42,899 nt of DNA. Origin: Komagataeibacter europaeus LMG 18890 (GTDB lineage Bacteria; Pseudomonadota; Alphaproteobacteria; Acetobacterales; Acetobacteraceae). Under the pieces are notes generated by a model, which worked only from the letters and a program-made list of their open reading frames with translations, was not told the DNA's origin and searched no databases. This document shows, piece by piece, positions 25,634 to 42,899 of the stretch. The stretch's first letter is position 1; each line of letters starts with the position of its first letter. The stretch lies in NCBI RefSeq assembly GCF_000285295.1, contig NZ_CADP01000011.1, forward strand, positions 17,338 to 60,236, in the 5' to 3' direction. A program made the position numbers and the translations under genes.

Positions 25634-27364
25634 GTGTTGGTCATGCAGACCGGAACAGGCAGATCGGACTCTGGAACAACGGCAGGCAGCGTACCCGCCC
25701 ACAATGGGCTGCGTGCCCGGCTGCATGATATCCTGGCCGGCCTGTCGCTTGCCTCCATGAACATTCCGCAGGTTCTGGGCTACACGCGCATTGCCGCCAT
25801 GCCTGCGGTAACGGGACTGTACACGGTACTGCTGCCACTGGTGGCATTCGCGTGTTTCGGGGCATCGAAACATCTGGTTGTCGCAGCCGATTCCGCCACC
25901 GCCGCCATTTTTTCCAGTGCGGTCGGTCGCATGGCGACACCGGGCAGCACGCATTACATGGCGCTGGTCAGCATGGTTGCCCTGCTCAGCGCGGGCTTCC
26001 TGCTGGTCGCACGCCTGTTCCGCCTGGGCTTTCTGGCGGATTTCCTTTCGCGCACCGTGCTTGTGGGATTCCTTGCCGGGGTGGGGGTGCAGGTCGCACT
26101 GGCCATGACGCGCGACATGCTGGGCATTACCACCACGGCGCACAACCCGTTACTACAGCTGTTCCAGACACTGGCGCAGCTTTCGCATGTCAATATCCCG
26201 ACCCTGCTGCTGTCCGCCGGCATCGTGGCCATCATCATGACGGGGGACCGGCTGACGCCACGTGCGCCACTGGCGCTGGTGACCGTGGTGGGCACGATCA
26301 TGGTCAGCATGACCTTTGGCCTGTCCCGGTTCGGAATAGAGACGATCGGCCCGATCGTGGGCGGCCTGCCCCGCCTGTCCATACCCGATGTGTCATGGAA
26401 TGACATGCTGGCGCTGCTGCCTGCCACGACATCATGCGTTTTCGTCATCATTGCGCAGAGTGCCGCGACATCACGCGCCTTTGCCCTGCGCTTCCATGAT
26501 CCGGTGGATGACAACGCGGACATACTGGGCCTGTGCGCCGCCAACGCGGCGGCGGGGCTGAGCGGGACATTCACCGTCAACGGCAGCCCGACCCAGACCG
26601 CGATGGCCGTGCGGGCAGGCGCGCGCAGCCAGCTTGCACAGCTGACATTTGCCATCGTCACGATGCTTGTACTGGTGTTTCTGACCGCGCCGCTGCAGTA
26701 CCTGCCGCGCTGCGTGCTGGCATCCATCGTCTTTACCGTGGCGCTGGGCATGATCGACCTGCAGGCGATGGTCGCCATCCGGCGCGAAAGCCCCGGTGAA
26801 TTCGGGCTGGCGCTGATGACCGCCGCCGCTGTCGTGGGCATCGGGGTGGAACAGGGCATCTTCCTGGCCATCGCGCTGTCGCTGTTCCGCCATGTGCGAC
26901 ACAGCTACGAACCCCATACGATGATCCTGCGCCGGGACGGGCAGTCCGGCCTGCTGGAACCCTATGACGTAAGACCCGGACAGCAGACCGCGCCGGGACT
27001 GATTGTCTATCGCTTCTGTGCCGACCTGTTCTATGCCAACGCCACGCGGTTCGCGCATGACGTGCAAGTGCTGGTTGACAATGCCCCGACCCCCGTCCGG
27101 TGTCTTGTAATCGATGCCAGCGCCATCACGGATATCGACTTTTCCGCCGCAAGCGACCTGCGTGACCTGTTCACGACCCTGCGGGCGCGGCATGTAACCG
27201 TGATATTTGGCCGCGTCACCCCCTACCTGCGGGCCGACATGGACCGCCATCGCATCACCCCGGTCATCAGCGCCGTCAACATCCACGCGCAGCTTCATAC
27301 CGCCATCGCGGCGGCGCGAAAGGTAATGACCGACAGCGAGATATCCAAGCCCACGATACATTAG
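25634..27364 (+). CDS. SulP family anion transporter with STAS domain
   Basis: A 576-residue transporter. The membrane domain (about residues 25-410) shows the SulP opening DILAGLSLASMNIPQVLGYTRIAAMPAVTGLY, the PTQTAMAVRAGARSQLAQL segment, and LPRCVLASIVFTVALGMIDL. The C-terminal cytoplasmic STAS domain (about 460-560) has PVRCLVIDASAITDIDFSAASDL. SulP proteins move sulfate, bicarbonate or dicarboxylates. Sulfate is tempting given the sulfur locus further right, but that cannot be decided from sequence. The given start is a GTG; an ATG at 25643 is an equal candidate, and the ribosome binding site is unclear. Confidence 0.9.
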   Translation: MLVMQTGTGRSDSGTTAGSVPAHNGLRARLHDILAGLSLASMNIPQVLGYTRIAAMPAVTGLYTVLLPLVAFACFGASKHLVVAADSATAAIFSSAVGRMATPGSTHYMALVSMVALLSAGFLLVARLFRLGFLADFLSRTVLVGFLAGVGVQVALAMTRDMLGITTTAHNPLLQLFQTLAQLSHVNIPTLLLSAGIVAIIMTGDRLTPRAPLALVTVVGTIMVSMTFGLSRFGIETIGPIVGGLPRLSIPDVSWNDMLALLPATTSCVFVIIAQSAATSRAFALRFHDPVDDNADILGLCAANAAAGLSGTFTVNGSPTQTAMAVRAGARSQLAQLTFAIVTMLVLVFLTAPLQYLPRCVLASIVFTVALGMIDLQAMVAIRRESPGEFGLALMTAAAVVGIGVEQGIFLAIALSLFRHVRHSYEPHTMILRRDGQSGLLEPYDVRPGQQTAPGLIVYRFCADLFYANATRFAHDVQVLVDNAPTPVRCLVIDASAITDIDFSAASDLRDLFTTLRARHVTVIFGRVTPYLRADMDRHRITPVISAVNIHAQLHTAIAAARKVMTDSEISKPTIH

Positions 27365-35384: not shown

Positions 35385-37703
35385 TCAATTGAACCCGATG
35401 GACACACCCGCAAAAATGCCGAACCCGTCACCCGACAGCATGGCGGCAGGCTGCTGTCCGTTGCTGGTGGAATAGACCGGCACCACACCCGTTGCGTAAT
35501 GTTTGTTGGCAAGGTTGTGCAGGCTCAGGAACACCTGTCGGTGCTTGTTTGGCCAGAGGTAACCGATATCAAAATTATAGATATGATAGGGCGCGGCCTT
35601 GTACTGGTTGTCATACGAAGCCAGCACCGAAGACGAGACTTCCACATCGAATGAAGTATAAAATCCGTTCTTCATATCAAGGTGCAATTCTCCCTGATAG
35701 AAATGACGCGGAATACCGGGAATGTAGTTGTGTCCCCATGTTGCGTCATGGTTGAAGCGGAAGCTCTGGAATGTATAGGCCTGGCGAAGCGAAATGATGT
35801 TGCCCTGCCATTTGTACAACGTTGAATGAAAGGACGTTTCAACCCCCTGATGCGTTGTGGGCGATGCATTGCCGTAAGTGGAGTTGTTGTACAGGATGGA
35901 ATTAGGGGTCGCGACCGCCAATAATTCGTTATGAACGGCGGAGTGGTAGTAGGTGACACTCCATTCCGTACCGGCAAAATGGCCGCTGGTGCCCACTTCA
36001 AATGTCGTGGCCGTCTGGGGACGCAGGTTGGCCCAGTCTTTTGTCAGGCCCGTGGCGATCCCCGATGTATAATTGGCGCCCGAAAGGTACTGCCAGTCCT
36101 GCGGACTCTGCACGCTGCGGCTGACATTGCTGTACACCTCGACATTGGGGGTGATGACATAACGGAACCCCGCGCGCGGTGCGAAATACAGCGCATTCTG
36201 GCTGAAGGAACTTGTCTGCGGGTATGTCTGTGATCCCGAACGCGGGGTGTAGCTTAACGCGCCGGCCGCGGTCAGCCAGAAGTTGTGAAAAAGTTCGGTA
36301 TTGTTGCGCACATGGAAAACCGTATCACTTCCCCCCAGGTGCGAACGGGTCACAAGGGTGCCAAGCGCATAACCGGGATAGGCCGCCTGCCGACGCACCC
36401 GGTTGTCAATGGTGGCGTCAAGGTCATGCGATGTATAGATACCGATATCCGTATCACTGGCATGCCCCAGCAGCTTGTCCTGACGTGTGTAATTCACCAT
36501 GCCCGTGGCGTAGTCGATATTGTACAGTGACGAGGTATTACCCAGTTCATGGTCCATCGGCGCGTTCAGGTAGGCGAAGCCAACGGTCAGCCTGGACTGG
36601 TCATCAATACGGATCCTCAGCCGGTCGGCAGCATATTTGGTGCCGGGTTCAATGGTCTTTGTGCCCCATGTCGCATATTCGGGCTGCATCTGGCGCGGAT
36701 TGTCACGGATCTGGTCACGCGTCAGATAATAGGGGTTGCCTTCCCATGTCTGGCGATAGCGGAAGAAAAAACGGTTATCGACATTGTCGCTGAATTTGTA
36801 ACCGTAATTGAAATTCACACCAAAATTCGTGGTCTTGGTATTGTCCTGGTAGCCCCCGCGATAGGAATTGGTAACACTGAGATAATAGTCGGATTTGCCG
36901 ATGACAGTGCCCGAACTCAGCTGTTCCTTCACGTAGCCGAAACTGCCTGCTTCCACACGAGCCTGATAACGCTGTGAATTATATCCCGTCTGCGTGACGT
37001 AATTGATCGCGCCACCCAACTGGGTGGAACCGAAATCGATGCCATTCCCGCCGCGCATGATCTCGGTATACCGGATGCCCAATGGTTCCTGCAGTTCATT
37101 GACCGTGCCAATGGGCGTGGTCAGCGGAATATCGTCAAACAGGAACATAATGCCCGCACGCGTGGCGTTCAGTCCTGTCTGGATGCCCGAACCACGAATG
37201 GAAATACGCAGGTCATCCGATCCGCAGGGGGCCTGGGCAAATACGCCCGCCTGATACTTGAATGCATCCGCATTGGTGGCGTTCCGTCCCTTCAGCACGG
37301 TGGCCGCGTCAATGACGCTGGTGCCGCCGGGAATGGTTTTCAGGTACACCTCCGCCTGATGCGTTGCCGCACTGTGATGATGCACGGCAATATGTTCGAC
37401 CGTGCTGGCATCCAGCCCGTTACCATCCGCATGACCATCATGATGGCTGGCTGCGTCATGTCCCCCTGCGGCATGCCGGACAGGGGTGCGGTGGGGGATA
37501 CGATGCGTGGTCGTTTCATCCGGCGCGACAGATACGGCAGCCAGGGCGTGATGGGATGCAAACAGAACGCCAAACAGACCACTGGCGAGGACAAAGGTGC
37601 GTTTGCCCTGTGCCTCCCCGGCAGGGATCCGGCCACGATACAGCTGGGGATGGAGATGGGGAGGTAATACGGTGGAGGGCCGGAATAATTCACTTTTTAA
37701 CAT
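35385..37703 (-). CDS. TonB-dependent outer-membrane receptor with His-rich N-terminus
   Basis: A 772-residue TonB-dependent receptor. A long N-region ends in a signal segment (TFVLASGLFGVLFASHHALA, about residues 37-56). Residues 67-115 contain 12 His, including HH and HHH, before the plug. The plug (about 118-250) shows IPGGTSVIDAATVLKGRNATNADAF, DDLRISIRGSGIQ and EIMRGGNGIDFGSTQLGGAINYVT. The rest is a 22-strand-type barrel ending in FAGVSIGFN with a terminal aromatic-like pattern. It actively imports a ligand through the outer membrane. Its neighbours suggest an organosulfur compound; the His-rich segment could instead suggest a metal chelate. GGAAA precedes the start by 9 bases. Confidence 0.93.
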   Translation of the reverse strand: MLKSELFRPSTVLPPHLHPQLYRGRIPAGEAQGKRTFVLASGLFGVLFASHHALAAVSVAPDETTTHRIPHRTPVRHAAGGHDAASHHDGHADGNGLDASTVEHIAVHHHSAATHQAEVYLKTIPGGTSVIDAATVLKGRNATNADAFKYQAGVFAQAPCGSDDLRISIRGSGIQTGLNATRAGIMFLFDDIPLTTPIGTVNELQEPLGIRYTEIMRGGNGIDFGSTQLGGAINYVTQTGYNSQRYQARVEAGSFGYVKEQLSSGTVIGKSDYYLSVTNSYRGGYQDNTKTTNFGVNFNYGYKFSDNVDNRFFFRYRQTWEGNPYYLTRDQIRDNPRQMQPEYATWGTKTIEPGTKYAADRLRIRIDDQSRLTVGFAYLNAPMDHELGNTSSLYNIDYATGMVNYTRQDKLLGHASDTDIGIYTSHDLDATIDNRVRRQAAYPGYALGTLVTRSHLGGSDTVFHVRNNTELFHNFWLTAAGALSYTPRSGSQTYPQTSSFSQNALYFAPRAGFRYVITPNVEVYSNVSRSVQSPQDWQYLSGANYTSGIATGLTKDWANLRPQTATTFEVGTSGHFAGTEWSVTYYHSAVHNELLAVATPNSILYNNSTYGNASPTTHQGVETSFHSTLYKWQGNIISLRQAYTFQSFRFNHDATWGHNYIPGIPRHFYQGELHLDMKNGFYTSFDVEVSSSVLASYDNQYKAAPYHIYNFDIGYLWPNKHRQVFLSLHNLANKHYATGVVPVYSTSNGQQPAAMLSGDGFGIFAGVSIGFN

Positions 37704-38094
37704 TGTAGTTTTTCCATTATGACCGCAAGGAACGCATTAATTTGTTAGCGGCCAGAATGGACTTTTCATACAGGCATGAAGGTCTGGAATTCCAAAAATA
37801 CGGAACAGTTGTACCAAAACAACATATACACATATATAATAGTTAATTATAGGCAGCCCATGCAGCCACGCGACCCGGATGTCCATGAAATTTTAAAAAA
37901 TTATTGTTTTTTATCATATAATTAAACAAAATTATGATCGGTATGATTCCATAATCAGAAACGACAGCAATCATACCGAAAGCAGAAATTTTCTTCCCAT
38001 CAACGCAACGGATTGCATATCCGACAGGAAGTTGCCCTCTGTTTGGCCTACATTATTATACAGTTTTTATTTGTTATTTATGCACCCTCCTGCC
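37704..38094. other. AT-rich intergenic region upstream of the TonB receptor
   Basis: About 390 bases, strongly AT-rich between 37780 and 37960, between the end of the first monooxygenase gene and the receptor start. No gene is seen. It holds an 11-bp inverted repeat (listed separately) and must carry the receptor promoter unless transcription reads through from upstream. Confidence 0.5.
37938..37979. promoter_or_regulatory. 11-bp inverted repeat upstream of the TonB receptor
   Basis: TCGGTATGATT (37938-37948) and AATCATACCGA (37969-37979) are perfect reverse complements separated by 20 bases, two helical turns. This layout suits a dimeric regulator. On the minus strand only a weak T-rich run follows, so a terminator for the upstream gene is less likely but possible. 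Confidence 0.5.
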
Positions 38095-39345
38095 CTAGCT
38101 CCATGCATGTAACGGTGGCAGGGCATGGTTCAGGTAGTAATTTCCCACAATCGCATATTTCCAGCGTACCGGATCATGCAGCGTGTGCGTACGCGCGTTA
38201 CGCCACAGGTAATCAAGGTTCAGCTTCCGGTCCGTGGCGGATGCGCCAGCCAGTTCGAACAGTCTGTTTGTCGCCTCCATGGCGCTTTCGGTCGTCAGAA
38301 CCTTGGCCTGCGCTGTCTCGATCTGAGCGGTAGCGACACTTTGCGCACTTGGGGTTGAAACGGCGTAATCAATGGCATCACCTGCCCTGTCCAGCAGGGC
38401 CAGTCCAGCATTCAGGCGTATTTTCAACGCCCCGACCATCTGGATTGTATAAGGATCGTCCGATGCCTTTTCCTGTCCACTGTCGATCCACGCGCGGGCG
38501 CGGGTATGGACCAGATCGATTGTCGCATCGATTGCCGCGTCGGCCAGGCCCGCGTCGATGGCCGCCTGTATGAACTGCGATATGGCGCTGTCGGCAAATG
38601 GCGCGTCAGGCCTGTAGGCCTTCCAGACCGGGATGACACGGTTGCGTGGCACCTGCACGTCCGTCAGTTGCACGGTGCCGCTTGCCGTTCCTTTCTGTCC
38701 AAATGCAGACCAGTCATTGATGACATTCAGGCCGGGCGCATGACGCTCCGCAATGGCAAGATGGCTGTGCCCGTCTTCATCCAGTGCCACGATCTGCACC
38801 AGATGTGCCGACAGCGCCCCCGTGCAGTAATGCTTGATGCCATTCAGGGTAACGGTGTCGCCCGTTATCTGAAAACGTGTTTTCAGCGCCCCGACATGCC
38901 TGATGCCACGTTCTGAAAATGCATTGCCAAACCTGTATCCTTTCAGCACCAGCGCAAACAGGTCGCGCGCCTGTTCTGGACTGGCGCAGGAGACGAGGCT
39001 GGCGATCGTGGCGAAGTGATTCTGGCTGAGTTGCGCCACCGCTGAATCCGCTTTTGCAATCAGCCGGATCACCTGTCCCAACGTGCGGTAGGACACAGCG
39101 GCCCCGCCATAGGCGCGTGGCACGGTAATACCCCACAGCCCGGAACCGGAAAAGATGTCCAGTTCACGCGCGGGAAAGCGGTTTTCATGGTCGCGTTGTG
39201 CGGCCCCTGGCGCGATCTGCCGGGCGACTTCGGCTGCAATGCGCAATGCCGCGTCATCATTCGCGATGACGGGCACGCCAGCAGGCGGCAGGGGAAACGG
39301 GGGGACATCCGTCTCACCCGTGCCGACAAATTCCGTATGGGTCAT
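38095..39345 (-). CDS. SfnB-family sulfur-acquisition monooxygenase
   Basis: A 416-residue acyl-CoA-dehydrogenase-fold flavoprotein of the SfnB/DszC type. Diagnostic segments are LDIFSGSGLWGITVPRAYGGAAVS, IAKADSAVAQLSQNHFA, GNAFSERG, LNGIKHYCTGALSAHLVQIVALDEDG, and the ending NYYLNHALPPLHAWS, which matches the LNG-x-x-PP-x-H-x-W ending of DszC and SfnB. Such enzymes use reduced flavin and oxygen to oxidise sulfur compounds (sulfones, thiophenes) during sulfur starvation; no acyl-CoA is involved. It follows the second monooxygenase gene by 39 bases in a leftward operon. A flavin reductase would be needed but is not seen in the window. Confidence 0.88.
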   Translation of the reverse strand: MTHTEFVGTGETDVPPFPLPPAGVPVIANDDAALRIAAEVARQIAPGAAQRDHENRFPARELDIFSGSGLWGITVPRAYGGAAVSYRTLGQVIRLIAKADSAVAQLSQNHFATIASLVSCASPEQARDLFALVLKGYRFGNAFSERGIRHVGALKTRFQITGDTVTLNGIKHYCTGALSAHLVQIVALDEDGHSHLAIAERHAPGLNVINDWSAFGQKGTASGTVQLTDVQVPRNRVIPVWKAYRPDAPFADSAISQFIQAAIDAGLADAAIDATIDLVHTRARAWIDSGQEKASDDPYTIQMVGALKIRLNAGLALLDRAGDAIDYAVSTPSAQSVATAQIETAQAKVLTTESAMEATNRLFELAGASATDRKLNLDYLWRNARTHTLHDPVRWKYAIVGNYYLNHALPPLHAWS

Positions 39346-39384
39346 GGTAGGTCCAGTCTGGATGGAATCAGGGATGATCGGGAT

Positions 39385-40536
39385 TCATGACAGCGCCCGC
39401 TGGCCCGCGATCCGGCGCAGCAATTCGCCATGGGGTGCATGGATGCGGCCACACAGCGCGTCACGATGGGCGCGTTCCAGCGGGTTATGGGCAGACAGCC
39501 CAGCATTGCCCGCAAGACCCAGCAGGGCGGATGTAAAATCGGCCGCCGCATCGACCACGCGGGATTTGATCACCGCCGCATGCGCATTCAGTTCGGGCAG
39601 GGGGCGTGCGGCCGTGACATCCGCGGCATAAAGCCGCAGCAGCATGGCGTTCATGTGCAGCGTAATGGCGAAGCCCCCCACGGCGTCGCGCATGGCGGGC
39701 AGGGTCGCAAGCGGTGCGCCCAGATTGGATGGCACGCGATTTTTCAGAAATTCGCCAAACCATGTCAGCGCGGACGTGGCGATGCCATTATACAAGGCGC
39801 CCAGCAGGCCCGTATTCCATAACATGAGGATATTGCGTCCTGCCGGGGGCGTATCGGGCGCGTGCAGGCCCAGCGCCGCATCGGGCGGAAGCACGACCTG
39901 CGTGAAGGTGACTTCATGGCTGTTGCTGGCGCGCATGCCGATATGGTCCCAGTTTTCAATGACATGAATACCCTCCGCCGTGGCCGGGACCATGAATGTG
40001 CCCACCCGCACCGGGTCTTCGTCCGTGCGGGCGCGCACCAGCAGCCATGACAGGCCGGGAATGCCGGTGACATAGGCCTTGCGTCCATCCAGCACCCATC
40101 CCCCGGCCGTGCGGGTCGCCACCGTGCCGGGCAGGCCGCCGCGCGATGCGGAGCCAAGATCGGGTTCCGCCAGCAGGATATTGGTCAGCCGGTCATGCTG
40201 TTCCTCTTCCATCCAGCGCACGAAAACACCGGAGCCGAATTCGTGGTGCGCAATCGCGGCGCGTACCATGTAATGGTTGACCATGACCAGCGCGGTAGAA
40301 GCATCGCCCTGTGCAATCCGGCCCACGATGTCCTGCACCACGCCAAGGGTAAACGGCATGGGCCGTTCGGGGGTGGAAATACGCAGCGACAGCAGTCCCG
40401 CCCGGCGCAGGTCATCAATATTCTCCTGTGCAAAAATCCCGGTGCGGTCATGGTGCGCCGCACGGGTGGCAAAGCGCGCCTGCAGGTGCGTTGCCGCATC
40501 AATGGCGTCATGTGCGGTATATCGTGTCAGAACCAT
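39385..40536 (-). CDS. Acyl-CoA-dehydrogenase-like monooxygenase of the sulfur locus
   Basis: A 383-residue flavoprotein of the same fold as its neighbour but clearly a different branch. Visible segments are FAQENIDDLRRAGLLSLRI, IAQGDASTALVMVNHYMV, ATRTAGGWVLDGRKAYVTGIPG and ENWDHIGMRASNSHEVTF, the flavin- and substrate-binding parts of acyl-CoA dehydrogenases and flavin-dependent monooxygenases. The start at 40536 lies 4 bases after the stop of the SsuA-like gene, so they are coupled; an upstream start at 40569 would overlap that gene. It probably oxidises an organosulfur substrate or intermediate imported by this locus. Confidence 0.85.
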   Translation of the reverse strand: MVLTRYTAHDAIDAATHLQARFATRAAHHDRTGIFAQENIDDLRRAGLLSLRISTPERPMPFTLGVVQDIVGRIAQGDASTALVMVNHYMVRAAIAHHEFGSGVFVRWMEEEQHDRLTNILLAEPDLGSASRGGLPGTVATRTAGGWVLDGRKAYVTGIPGLSWLLVRARTDEDPVRVGTFMVPATAEGIHVIENWDHIGMRASNSHEVTFTQVVLPPDAALGLHAPDTPPAGRNILMLWNTGLLGALYNGIATSALTWFGEFLKNRVPSNLGAPLATLPAMRDAVGGFAITLHMNAMLLRLYAADVTAARPLPELNAHAAVIKSRVVDAAADFTSALLGLAGNAGLSAHNPLERAHRDALCGRIHAPHGELLRRIAGQRALS

Positions 40537-40540
40537 GGTC

Positions 40541-41500
40541 TCATGCCCCCCGCACAATGGCCCGGACATCCGGCACGGTCGGGATCAGATGCGCATGGAA
40601 CAGGGTTGCTGCAATATCCTGCTGTTCCGTCACGACGGCCGGGTCCAGCGGTGCGGGTTGCAACGCCAGTTGCGCCAGTGCACGGGTAATGACGGGACGG
40701 GACAGGCCGGTACCGGCGGCAATGTCCGTGGTCAGCGTATCGGCATGATCCGCCGCCCATTGCACGCAGTCCTGTCGCACCTGCGCCAGCAGGGTGAAGA
40801 AGTCACCCGGATTGCGGTCCGCAAACGGCCTGCTGGCGATCAGGAACTGCCGGTTGGTCGTCACACCCTGCGCATCCACCAGCAGGCGGCCTTGCGTATC
40901 CACCAGGGCCGCACTCAGATACGGATCCCATATTGCCCATGCATCCACGCGCCCGGTCTCGAACGCGGCACGACCGGCGGCGGGCGGCAGATAGACAGGG
41001 TGGATATCCGTCCATGCAATCCCCGCACGCTGCAGTAGTACCAGCAGCAGGTAATGTACGTTGGACCCACGGTTCAGGGCAATCCTGCGTCCCTTCGGAT
41101 CAGCCGGGGTCTGTATGGGACTGCCGGCGGGCACCAGCACGCCTTCGCCATGCGGGGCGGGGGCGGAACAGCCGATACAGGCCAGCCCATCAGGCCATGC
41201 GGCCTGCGCCATGACCGGGGGGGCATTCCCGGTTTCGCCAATGTCGATGGCATCCGCCGCAAGCGCCTGCAGCAGCTGGGGACCGGCAATGAATTCGGAC
41301 CACTGCACATGCATCCCACGCGGGACAAGGGCGCGTTCCAGCAACCCGCTATGTTTCAGCACCACCAGCGTGCCGTACTGCTGGTAGCCCACGCGGACCG
41401 TGACATCCCGTGCCGCATGCGCCCGGCGCGGCATCCACGCGAGGCATGACAGCGCCATGCCAAGACCGGTCAGGAACGTGCGACGTGAATACCGTTTCAT
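40541..41500 (-). CDS. Tat-exported SsuA-like aliphatic sulfonate-binding protein
   Basis: A 319-residue periplasmic binding protein of the SsuA/TauA (NMT1-like) family. The signal KRYSRRTFLTGLGMALSCLA carries the twin-arginine SRRTFL motif, so export in folded form by Tat is predicted. The mature part shows VRVGYQQYGTLVVLKHSGLLER, FIAGPQLLQALAADAIDIGETGNAPP and GSNVHYLLLVLL, VDAWAIWDPYLSAAL, all standard for sulfonate-binding proteins. It would capture sulfonates or related sulfur compounds. The partner permease and ATPase genes (ssuC, ssuB) are absent nearby. It is the first gene of the leftward unit, with the promoter region at 41501-42030. Confidence 0.9.
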   Translation of the reverse strand: MKRYSRRTFLTGLGMALSCLAWMPRRAHAARDVTVRVGYQQYGTLVVLKHSGLLERALVPRGMHVQWSEFIAGPQLLQALAADAIDIGETGNAPPVMAQAAWPDGLACIGCSAPAPHGEGVLVPAGSPIQTPADPKGRRIALNRGSNVHYLLLVLLQRAGIAWTDIHPVYLPPAAGRAAFETGRVDAWAIWDPYLSAALVDTQGRLLVDAQGVTTNRQFLIASRPFADRNPGDFFTLLAQVRQDCVQWAADHADTLTTDIAAGTGLSRPVITRALAQLALQPAPLDPAVVTEQQDIAATLFHAHLIPTVPDVRAIVRGA

Positions 41501-41621
41501 TGCAGGCTTACCTGTAACAGGGGTGGGACATATGCCGTCCGACAGATCCCTGCCGGTTGCTGAATCGGGCCAGGGATGGAGGATATATTTAACAATATAA
41601 AACCGTTAATATGTATTTATG

Positions 41622-41649
41622 ACATTATAAACGTAAATTCATATGTCAA
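41622..41649 (-). promoter_or_regulatory. Predicted sigma-70 promoter of the ssuA-like unit
   Basis: On the minus strand TTGACA (41649-41644) is followed after 16 bases by TAATGT (41627-41622); an overlapping TATAAT has a spacing of 14. It lies about 120 bases upstream of the ssuA-like start and points toward it. Confidence 0.4.
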
Positions 41650-41944
41650 CGGGATAATTTCCCTCTGTCCGGGTTTTCAACACGATCATGCCGTGTAGAC
41701 CATGCGCCGATTCAAGGGCTGTGCCGTCCGGGCATTATATAACGATAAAATTTGTATAATTTAACGGAAGTGTGCCTGCTCCATATAATACGATTCAATC
41801 GTGTTATATTTTTATAAAAAATATCTTTTGAAAACAGATTATTAATAAAATCGTAACACTCATTTTAAACCATATTCCAGTGAAATTTGTCAGATTTCCT
41901 CCTCGATCCCTCATATAAAATCATACGGAATAGTTGTTATTTTA

Positions 41945-41972
41945 TTGACTCGAATATCTTAGTTGTTAATGT
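41945..41972 (+). promoter_or_regulatory. Predicted sigma-70 promoter of the third monooxygenase gene
   Basis: TTGACT (41945-41950) and TAATGT (41967-41972) with a 16-base spacer. It is nearly the same -35/-10 pair and spacing as the opposite promoter of the region and lies about 60 bases before the gene start. Confidence 0.4.
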
Positions 41973-42030
41973 GTGTGAAATGTAAATGCGCATACGACAT
42001 AGTTAAAATATGCACGCAATCGAGGTCGCC

Positions 42031-42492
42031 ATGACAGATCCGGTACATCTCCCACACGGCTTTTCCCCACGGATTGATGCGCTTGCGCACAGGCTGCGCC
42101 CGGTTTTCGCGCGCATTGCCGATGGCGCCATTGATCGCGAAGAAAATCGTATCCTGGCCCATGATGCGGTACGGTGGCTGCTTGATGCCGGTTTTGGCGC
42201 GCTGCGCGTGCCGGTGCGTCATGGGGGCAGCGGGGCCAGCCTGCCGGAAACCTTCGCGTTGCTGGCCGAACTGGCCGAAGCGGATTCAAACCTGCCGCAG
42301 ATCTTCCGCGCCCATTTCGCCTTTGTCGAAGGGCGTCTGCATGAAGGCGACAGCGCGCGCGCCGCATACTGGCTGGAACAGGTTGCACAGGGCGCCCTGT
42401 TCGGCGCCGCCATGGCTGAACTGACGGACAGTACCGGCACCACCACCCTTGCAGTTACCCACAAATCTGCTGTTCTTGAATTTTGTGCTTGA
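42031..42492 (+). pseudogene. Third SfnB-like monooxygenase gene, cut off by an insertion element
   Basis: The N-terminal third of an acyl-CoA-dehydrogenase-fold monooxygenase related to SfnB/DszC. The start at 42031 has GAGG 4-5 bases upstream; an ATG at 42010 is in frame. Family segments are REENRILAHDAVRWLLDAGFGALRVPVRHGGSG, LAELAEADSNLPQIFRAHFAFVE and FGAAMAELTDSTGTTT. After about residue 140 (near 42450) similarity stops and a 13-residue unrelated tail leads to a stop at 42492, just before a transposase gene. A full enzyme would be about 400 residues, so the gene has been interrupted by the IS and is inactive unless the other part lies beyond the element. Confidence 0.8.
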
Positions 42493-42899
42493 TGCAGATG
42501 AATCTGTTGTGATTCCTTTTCTGTCACCTTTATGCAGGCGGGGTGTGAGAATGGTACAGGATTGGGTCATACAGGAAATATCCGGATCTGACCTTGGCGA
42601 CGAGCGCCTGAACAGGCGTCTGGGCACGATGCTCGCGGCACTTGCTGAACGACCGGGCAAGTCTCTCCCGACGGCATTTCAGGATTGGTCTGCGACCAAG
42701 GCAGCATATAGATTTTTTGCAAATGCAAATGTAAGCGAAGACAAAATCCTTGAAGGGCATTTTTCTGCTACCGCCCAGCGTTTCGATGCGACTGCAGGGC
42801 CAGTCCTGATCCTGCAGGATACAACGGAGTTTTCCTTCACCCGAGCATCTCCCGAAAAGATCGGGTTTACCAAGGTCTCTACGGGAGGCAGGGAAAAAA
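42450..42899 (+). mobile_element. IS4-family (Tn5-like) insertion element, left part
   Basis: The element begins somewhere near 42440-42465, where the monooxygenase reading frame loses similarity, and continues beyond the window end. It carries a rightward transposase gene from 42551. I could not define the terminal inverted repeat or the target duplication because only one end is present. Confidence 0.7.
42551..42899 (+). CDS. IS4-family transposase, N-terminal part
   Basis: The first 116 codons of a transposase open to the end of the window. It starts MVQDWVIQEISGSDLGDERL and shows LGTMLAALAERPGKSLPTAF, SATKAAYRFFANANVS and VLILQDTTEFSF. These match the Tn5-type transposase layout: a DNA-binding N-terminal domain with LGDxRRxxRL, GKSI, AYRFIRNPNVS, then the first catalytic Asp in the LxIEDTTxLSY strand (here ILQDTTEF). 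It would cut and paste its own element. No ribosome binding site is obvious, as is common for transposase genes. Confidence 0.85.
   Translation, partial: MVQDWVIQEISGSDLGDERLNRRLGTMLAALAERPGKSLPTAFQDWSATKAAYRFFANANVSEDKILEGHFSATAQRFDATAGPVLILQDTTEFSFTRASPEKIGFTKVSTGGREK

Follow-up and report, generated by a model that had tools for sequence, protein, structure and literature searches.

A probable TonB-linked organosulfur scavenging locus of Komagataeibacter europaeus LMG 18890, likely one half of an island interrupted by an insertion sequence

How can a locus equipped with an outer-membrane receptor, a periplasmic binding protein and several monooxygenases for organic sulfur lack the core of the ATP-binding cassette (ABC) transporter? 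This question is raised by positions 35385-42492 of the window, i.e., the whole stretch of 42,899 nucleotides of Komagataeibacter europaeus LMG 18890 that was analyzed (RefSeq assembly GCF_000285295.1, contig NZ_CADP01000011.1, hereafter C311, positions 17,338 to 60,236). An earlier interpretation based on the letters of the DNA (the sequence-only reading) had described these genes as an organosulfur acquisition locus without its ABC transporter core. The first part of this description is supported by the protein families and by a recurring gene context. For the second part, there is an explanation. The system looked incomplete because the contig ends inside an insertion sequence (IS) and because ssuA is truly split from ssuCB, a split common to three relatives. 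We consider it likely that the locus is one half of a TonB-linked organosulfur scavenging island, in which two divergent operons share one control region. Its features in the window are the following (the AT-rich regions and the duplication have no strand):

35385..37703, minus strand: TonB1, TonB-dependent outer-membrane receptor of 772 amino acids, sulfur-linked clade (Pfam, clade and gene context)
37704..38094: second AT-rich gap, between TonB1 and sfnB, GC content 0.368
38095..39345, minus strand: SfnB-family flavin monooxygenase of 416 amino acids, related to DszC and methanesulfinate monooxygenase (TIGR04022, PDB)
39385..40569, minus strand: ACD2, flavoprotein of the acyl-CoA-dehydrogenase (ACD) fold, 394 amino acids (Pfam fold)
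40541..41500, minus strand: SsuA-family putative periplasmic sulfonate-binding protein of 319 amino acids, ssuBC not adjacent (TIGR01728, PDB)
41501..42009: divergent AT-rich region between both operons, probable control region (from conserved blocks)
42010..42447, plus strand: ACD3, only the N-terminal 146 codons of the gene that opens the plus-strand operon (remainder on contig C236, 10023-10886)
42439..42447: 9-bp target-site duplication, repeated on C236 past the other IS end
42448..42899, plus strand: IS4-family element, left end including the transposase start, running off the contig

The window and contig C311 end together inside the IS, whose left end makes up the last 452 bases. The element starts at 42448 with the terminal repeat CTTGCAGTTACCCA, and its left end scores above the cut-offs of Tnp_DNA_bind and IS4_FS_Nterm. 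In the open reading frame 42010-42492, all codons beyond 42447 are IS sequence, and what had been taken for a third monooxygenase is a 146-codon fragment cut by the IS. Extending the sequence past the IS, as the sequence-only reading had proposed, revealed the continuation as an operon on C236. This contig carries the other IS end (inverse terminal repeat and a partial transposase C-terminus, under cut-off), then the same 9-bp duplication, the exact borders of which are ambiguous as the site lies within an ACC run, and then the ACD3 remainder. When the whole genome was searched with the SfnB model, the C236 stretch matched from model position 130, while the window fragment stops at 128. The 146 window codons and 284 further codons (by coordinates) add up to the 430-residue length of ACD3 of K. 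diospyri, and the joined ACD3 flanks (88 bases) align to the K. diospyri gene without gaps, with 79 of 87 aligned positions identical. C311 and C236 thus appear to be two parts of one island. The 452-bp IS end occurs in 13 full-length copies in the assembly, at least nine of which start at the first base of a contig or stop at the known last base of one. Where a contig breaks off in an IS, a system can seem to lack its core. As the IS sits in the first plus-strand gene, expression of the downstream genes may be low or lost, and the island is perhaps impaired in this isolate. On the minus strand, four genes remain at full length. A plasmid origin of the window island was considered and rejected, as no plasmid record covered 80% of the query in one place. 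For this reason, and because a DNA polymerase I gene lies within the window, the window is taken to be chromosomal.

Beyond the IS, C236 encodes in one direction the ACD3 remainder, an NtaA/DmoA enzyme, SsuD, an FAD-NAD(P)-binding protein (FAD protein), a transporter of the major facilitator superfamily (MFS), a flavin reductase, a second receptor (TonB2) and a second NtaA/DmoA enzyme. From ACD3 through the flavin reductase, the reading frames overlap or are spaced by at most 2 bp; TonB2 begins 214 bp after the flavin reductase, and the second NtaA/DmoA gene reaches the contig end. SsuD exceeds the equivalog cut-off of TIGR03565 (619.1 bits against 518.2), both NtaA/DmoA enzymes exceed the cut-off of their family (485 and 557.7 bits against 279.7), and the flavin reductase is above the Pfam cut-off of Flavin_Reduct. 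The joined island is found in four genomes, namely K. europaeus LMG 18890 and three relatives. The same two divergent operons occur without the IS in K. diospyri MSKU 9; G001, grouped with it here (G numbers are our running numbers for genomes), shows the full set. G014 and G010 have the same order, likewise without the IS, with the last NtaA/DmoA gene incomplete near the contig end. In G010, sfnB is moreover broken (fragmented at L150 9196-9850, with ACD2, SsuA and TonB1 alongside near full length). At the far end of the plus-strand module of G001 lies an integrase-core protein, probably a transposase, which suggests past mobility (L183 170-1177).

On the minus strand, the order leftward from the control region is SsuA, ACD2, SfnB, an AT-rich gap and TonB1, with a 29-bp overlap between the ACD2 start and the ssuA end and a spacing of 39 bp between ACD2 and sfnB. 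All four proteins are full-length and 88-95% identical to their K. diospyri counterparts. TonB1, like TonB2, carries a Plug and a beta-barrel domain, both above the Pfam cut-offs, and is thus a TonB-dependent receptor. SfnB reaches 539 bits against TIGR04022 (curated equivalog cut-off 430.9), and its PDB matches include DszC (3x0x) and methanesulfinate monooxygenase (6u76). Two SfnB/DszC-like enzymes had been proposed here. The term fits SfnB, but for ACD2, which is above no NCBIfam cut-off and has 5gj7 as its best PDB match, it is a guess. The DszC equivalog NF043015 (cut-off 850) is reached neither by SfnB (192.8) nor by ACD2 (54.3) or K. diospyri ACD3 (114.6). SsuA is above the subfamily cut-off of TIGR01728 (188.4 against 163.5 bits), below that of PRK11553 (237.6 against 299), and matches the E. 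coli SsuA structure 2x26 with E = 3.9e-55. Its N-terminus bears an SRRTFLT motif, Tat-like (twin-arginine translocation) by consensus, and its export is putative. The named gene set is partly borne out, with a TonB receptor, SfnB, an ACD-fold flavoprotein and SsuA present. A SulP-type sulfate permease with a STAS domain is encoded around 8 kb from the organosulfur genes (window 25634-27364, plus strand).

Within the window, the GC content over 500 bp falls to its minimum (0.36-0.37 compared to 0.602 for the window overall) in the region 41501-42009 between the two operons, which also contains blocks that are conserved across four genomes. This region is the probable control region. The gap at 37704-38094 is AT-rich as well and is possibly a separate promoter region of TonB1. 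A shared regulatory motif was not found: of seven conserved blocks tested across 41501-42009, the TonB1-sfnB gap, the regions preceding TonB2 and ssuC and one other gap, none recurs in the other regions with fewer than three mismatches.

The permease, ATPase and flavin reductase are indeed absent within 35385-42492, but a flavin reductase and candidates for the other two are encoded elsewhere in the genome. The sequence-only reading had supposed that such parts lay beyond the IS or were borrowed, and both alternatives gain support: C236 supplies the MFS transporter and flavin reductase on the far side of the IS, and a genome search located ssuC and ssuB apart on contig C279, for SsuA to use if the assignment below is right. 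Each is 48% identical to its E. coli counterpart. They adjoin pst-phoU-glcD-like genes, and no SsuA-family match lies near them on C279; conversely, no permease and ATPase stand beside the binding protein at the window locus. The same arrangement of ssuCB without ssuA is present in all four joined-island genomes. In five other genomes of the genus, ssuA adjoins ssuCB; in two of these (G013 and G002), the ssuCB-adjacent SsuA is only 35% identical to that of the window. The window SsuA may work with the distant SsuBC of C279. The best evidence, short of proof, is co-occurrence in related genomes: of the 19 genomes of the genus, the nine that have an SsuC orthologue (at least 68% identity) are also the nine with a strong SsuA match, i.e., E <= 5.1e-33 (Fisher p = 1.1e-5, uncorrected for kinship), with G016 (SsuA match of 1.5e-6 only) counted as without SsuA. 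The SsuABC-like genes on C321, which score under the cut-offs shown, might encode an alternative partner; this contig also encodes a further SfnB/DszC-like protein (L100 5414-6679; 227.7 bits to TIGR04022, under cut-off). The transporter on C222 was rejected as a partner, as its permease and ATPase are of the nitrate type and above nitrate-type cut-offs. In this row (L097), the nitrate-type ABC genes are accompanied by those for a binding protein and a rubredoxin/reductase-like protein and by a weak acyl-CoA-dehydrogenase-like gene.

Could the minus-strand genes then be a decaying remnant, inactive in the isolate after ssuA lost its ssuBC neighbors and the plus-strand operon was struck by the IS? 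Such decay would fit the IS within ACD3, the broken sfnB of the relative G010 and the fact that G040 and G298 have genes that are split or fragmentary. Yet, the four minus-strand genes are full-length and highly similar to those of K. diospyri, the control region has kept its conserved blocks and ssuCB is retained in the same genomes, which makes a mere remnant unlikely.

The outer-membrane receptors show how widely the association with sulfur enzymes recurs. Any match to TonB1 is found in 158 of 299 Acetobacteraceae genomes, and 24 receptors are at least 47% identical to it, spread over 18 of the 299 genomes and nine of 102 genera; these receptor counts are lower bounds as at most three candidates were scored per genome. 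The locus had been called unusual for an acetic acid bacterium. It does belong to a minority of genomes, but it is recurrent across genera. Each of the 24 receptors has SfnB, ACD, NtaA or SsuD homologues nearby, as determined in stretches of up to 20 kb (E <= 1e-20 for 23 receptors, NCBIfam models for the window locus). The weakest context is that of G013, with an NtaA homologue at 31%; the left half of this locus (L160) had no match in the context search and was counted jointly with L161. No sulfur genes occur in the 20-kb stretches around six receptors of 27-30% identity, which are among the best-scoring weaker matches rather than a random sample. A very divergent extra receptor of G233 (L164 5328-7346; 34-35% identity), which adjoins a plus-strand module, is in neither count. 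In a midpoint-rooted tree of 38 receptors, the sulfur-linked receptors and a receptor of Candidatus Methylocalor cossyra split from seven others at 100/100; the long branches include the Methylocalor receptor and the second receptor of G233 (34%), the longest of all. The Methylocalor receptor is encoded on a plasmid (L229), is 35% identical to TonB1 and is followed downstream by an acyl-CoA-dehydrogenase gene, sfnG and tonB-exbB-exbD. Transposase genes flank this locus on both sides. Gene context and clade together predict a TonB receptor clade for organosulfur compounds.

Most TonB receptors carry iron compounds, and the only PDB matches at E <= 1e-5 are a pyrroloquinoline quinone (PQQ) transporter and YncD. 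Import of metals, PQQ or siderophores, with coincidental sulfur neighbors, might be suspected on these grounds. Nonetheless, we regard it as quite unlikely: TonB1 is below the PqqU and BtuB equivalog cut-offs of NCBIfam, far so for PqqU (NF041535; TonB1 94.8 and TonB2 103.8 of 1200), the proximity to sulfur enzymes holds for 24 out of 24 receptors, and even the distant methanotroph receptor adjoins sfnG and an acyl-CoA-dehydrogenase gene.

At the inner membrane, the MFS transporter may offer a second route. We compared 20 genomes with the plus-strand module, scoring MFS presence within the fetched module stretches. Here, 'without' denotes no SsuC of at least 60% identity and no SsuA-family match above cut-off; distant permease and sub-cut-off binding-protein matches are present in G134 and G066. 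An intact module MFS without SsuA/SsuC orthologues occurs in five genomes (G102, G165, G272, G196 and G134), and a split MFS without them in two (G298 and G040, the latter also with an SsuA fragment). Nine genomes (G000, G001, G010, G014, G009, G207, G242, G233 and G240) combine the MFS with SsuA and SsuC. Three (G190, G290 and G158) have SsuA and SsuC without a module MFS; in G158, a contig end truncates the module, which was scored solely by its SsuD, FAD protein and reductase. One genome (G066) has neither route, and ABC-ATPase-like genes adjoin its module. Hence, 19 of the 20 carry the module MFS (split in two), SsuA and SsuC in the genome, or both. The island of G040 seems to be decaying, with the split MFS and the SsuA fragment (residues 24-106) lying by the module (L219). 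The MFS is proposed as an alternative importer because five genomes keep SsuD and an intact MFS without SsuA/SsuC orthologues. The distribution, which covers few lineages, is suggestive only of the MFS and SsuABC being two interchangeable inner-membrane routes. Tentatively, and with not quite an even chance in our estimate, the TonB1/TonB2 clade would be dedicated to organosulfur compounds in Acetobacteraceae and a gammaproteobacterial methanotroph, and in part of these bacteria the MFS would have replaced SsuABC, giving a TonB-MFS-SsuD sulfonate route without ABC transporter or binding protein. That the enzymes serve carbon use or detoxification instead of sulfur supply, with the MFS as an exporter, is very unlikely: the NtaA/DmoA and acyl-CoA-dehydrogenase folds also include enzymes of carbon and nitrogen catabolism, many MFS proteins work as exporters and that of C236 is above no NCBIfam cut-off, but SfnB and SsuD are above the curated cut-offs of sulfur-related families, and SsuA and the TonB receptors are uptake parts.

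In the proposed scavenging island, TonB1 and TonB2 would import organosulfur compounds (sulfonates, sulfones or related) across the outer membrane from dilute supply. In the periplasm, SsuA would bind sulfonates and hand them to the SsuBC encoded far away on C279, while the MFS would independently move the same or other compounds across the inner membrane. The SfnB, NtaA/DmoA and SsuD enzymes, fed with reduced flavin by the flavin reductase, would oxidize the compound and release sulfite. The substrates, the direction of the MFS, the cooperation of SsuA with SsuBC and induction by sulfur shortage are what we infer. A single class of compound, as had been suggested, is doubtful; several are suggested because there are two receptors, three ACD-fold enzymes and three luciferase-fold monooxygenases. 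The entry of small sulfonates is generally attributed to porins. If the proposal is true, some bacteria spend energy on pulling organic sulfur through the outer membrane, and a receptor clade tied to C-S cleaving enzymes names receptors, the MFS and mutants as targets for testing.

The DNA itself shows the identities of the genes, the break caused by the IS, how the operon continues, that ssuA and ssuCB are split and that the association recurs. A number of observations nevertheless weigh against the island as proposed. G066 has the enzymes but no module MFS and no SsuA/SsuC orthologues; the MFS is split in two of the seven genomes that have the MFS gene without SsuA/SsuC (G298 and G040); and G134 has the module but no receptor of the clade. 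SsuB and SsuC of C279, whose best NCBIfam families are the SsuB and SsuC models, score under the equivalog cut-offs (226 of 395 and 249 of 347 bits, respectively). Separation of ssuA from ssuBC also occurs outside the island: among the best 80 loci with an SsuA relative in the named genomes (584 relatives in total), 67 fetched stretches hold both an SsuB/NrtC-like and an SsuC/NrtB-like gene, and the remaining 13 comprise K. diospyri and 12 other loci, seven of them full stretches of over 20 kb. SsuA might use the other SsuABC-like genes (C321, or those of nitrate type on C222), and, given the identical IS copies elsewhere, a rearrangement between C311 and C236 might go unnoticed. Finally, what is proposed on expression, growth and transport derives from sequence. 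The purpose, sulfur scavenging, is ordinary and the construction uncommon; of its features, the receptor clade and the possible MFS route deserve testing.

Among known systems, ssuEADCB of E. coli is alike in its SsuA-family binding protein, SsuD, flavin reductase and the ssuCB present in the genome. The island differs in that its ssuCB lies elsewhere, its reductase is of the Flavin_Reduct (RutF/HpaC-like) type, and TonB receptors, an MFS and SfnB and NtaA/DmoA enzymes are added. The SftP-type TonB receptor of sulfate-ester utilization shares the tie of a TonB receptor to organic sulfur, whereas the receptors of the island are tied to C-S cleaving monooxygenases. Plasmid NZ_CP023037.1 of K. 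saccharivorans carries an annotated plus-strand module in the same order (acyl-CoA dehydrogenase, luciferase-like monooxygenase (LLM) enzyme, ssuD, FAD protein, MFS, flavin reductase and TonB receptor). It lacks the second NtaA/DmoA gene, and no SfnB, ACD2, SsuA or second receptor is annotated in the 26-kb stretch. In strain CV1, the plasmid that carries the module measures 217 kb (L228).

The sfn-msu pathway of Pseudomonas and Acinetobacter likewise combines SfnB/MsuC-type and SsuD-type flavin monooxygenases, and two papers report that its sfn and msu genes are upregulated when sulfur is scarce (PMC13352529, PMC12581299). According to the same papers, SfnG, MsuC and MsuD/SsuD act in series on dimethyl sulfone, deletion of msuC causes no significant growth defect (PMC13352529), and sfnG, msuD and msuE are strongly induced under sulfur starvation (PMC12581299). 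These reports support the enzyme roles only. In the island, unlike that pathway, outer-membrane receptors and an MFS belong to the operon, and no protein of C236, the part of the genome searched for SfnG, reaches the SfnG cut-off. TonB is unmentioned in the main text of one paper on the pathway (PMC13352529). Another paper refers in one passage to alkanesulfonate genes of Novacetimonas hansenii (PMC12405394). In the literature searched, which covers few subscription journals, no report was found in which a TonB receptor acts together with SsuD or SfnB.

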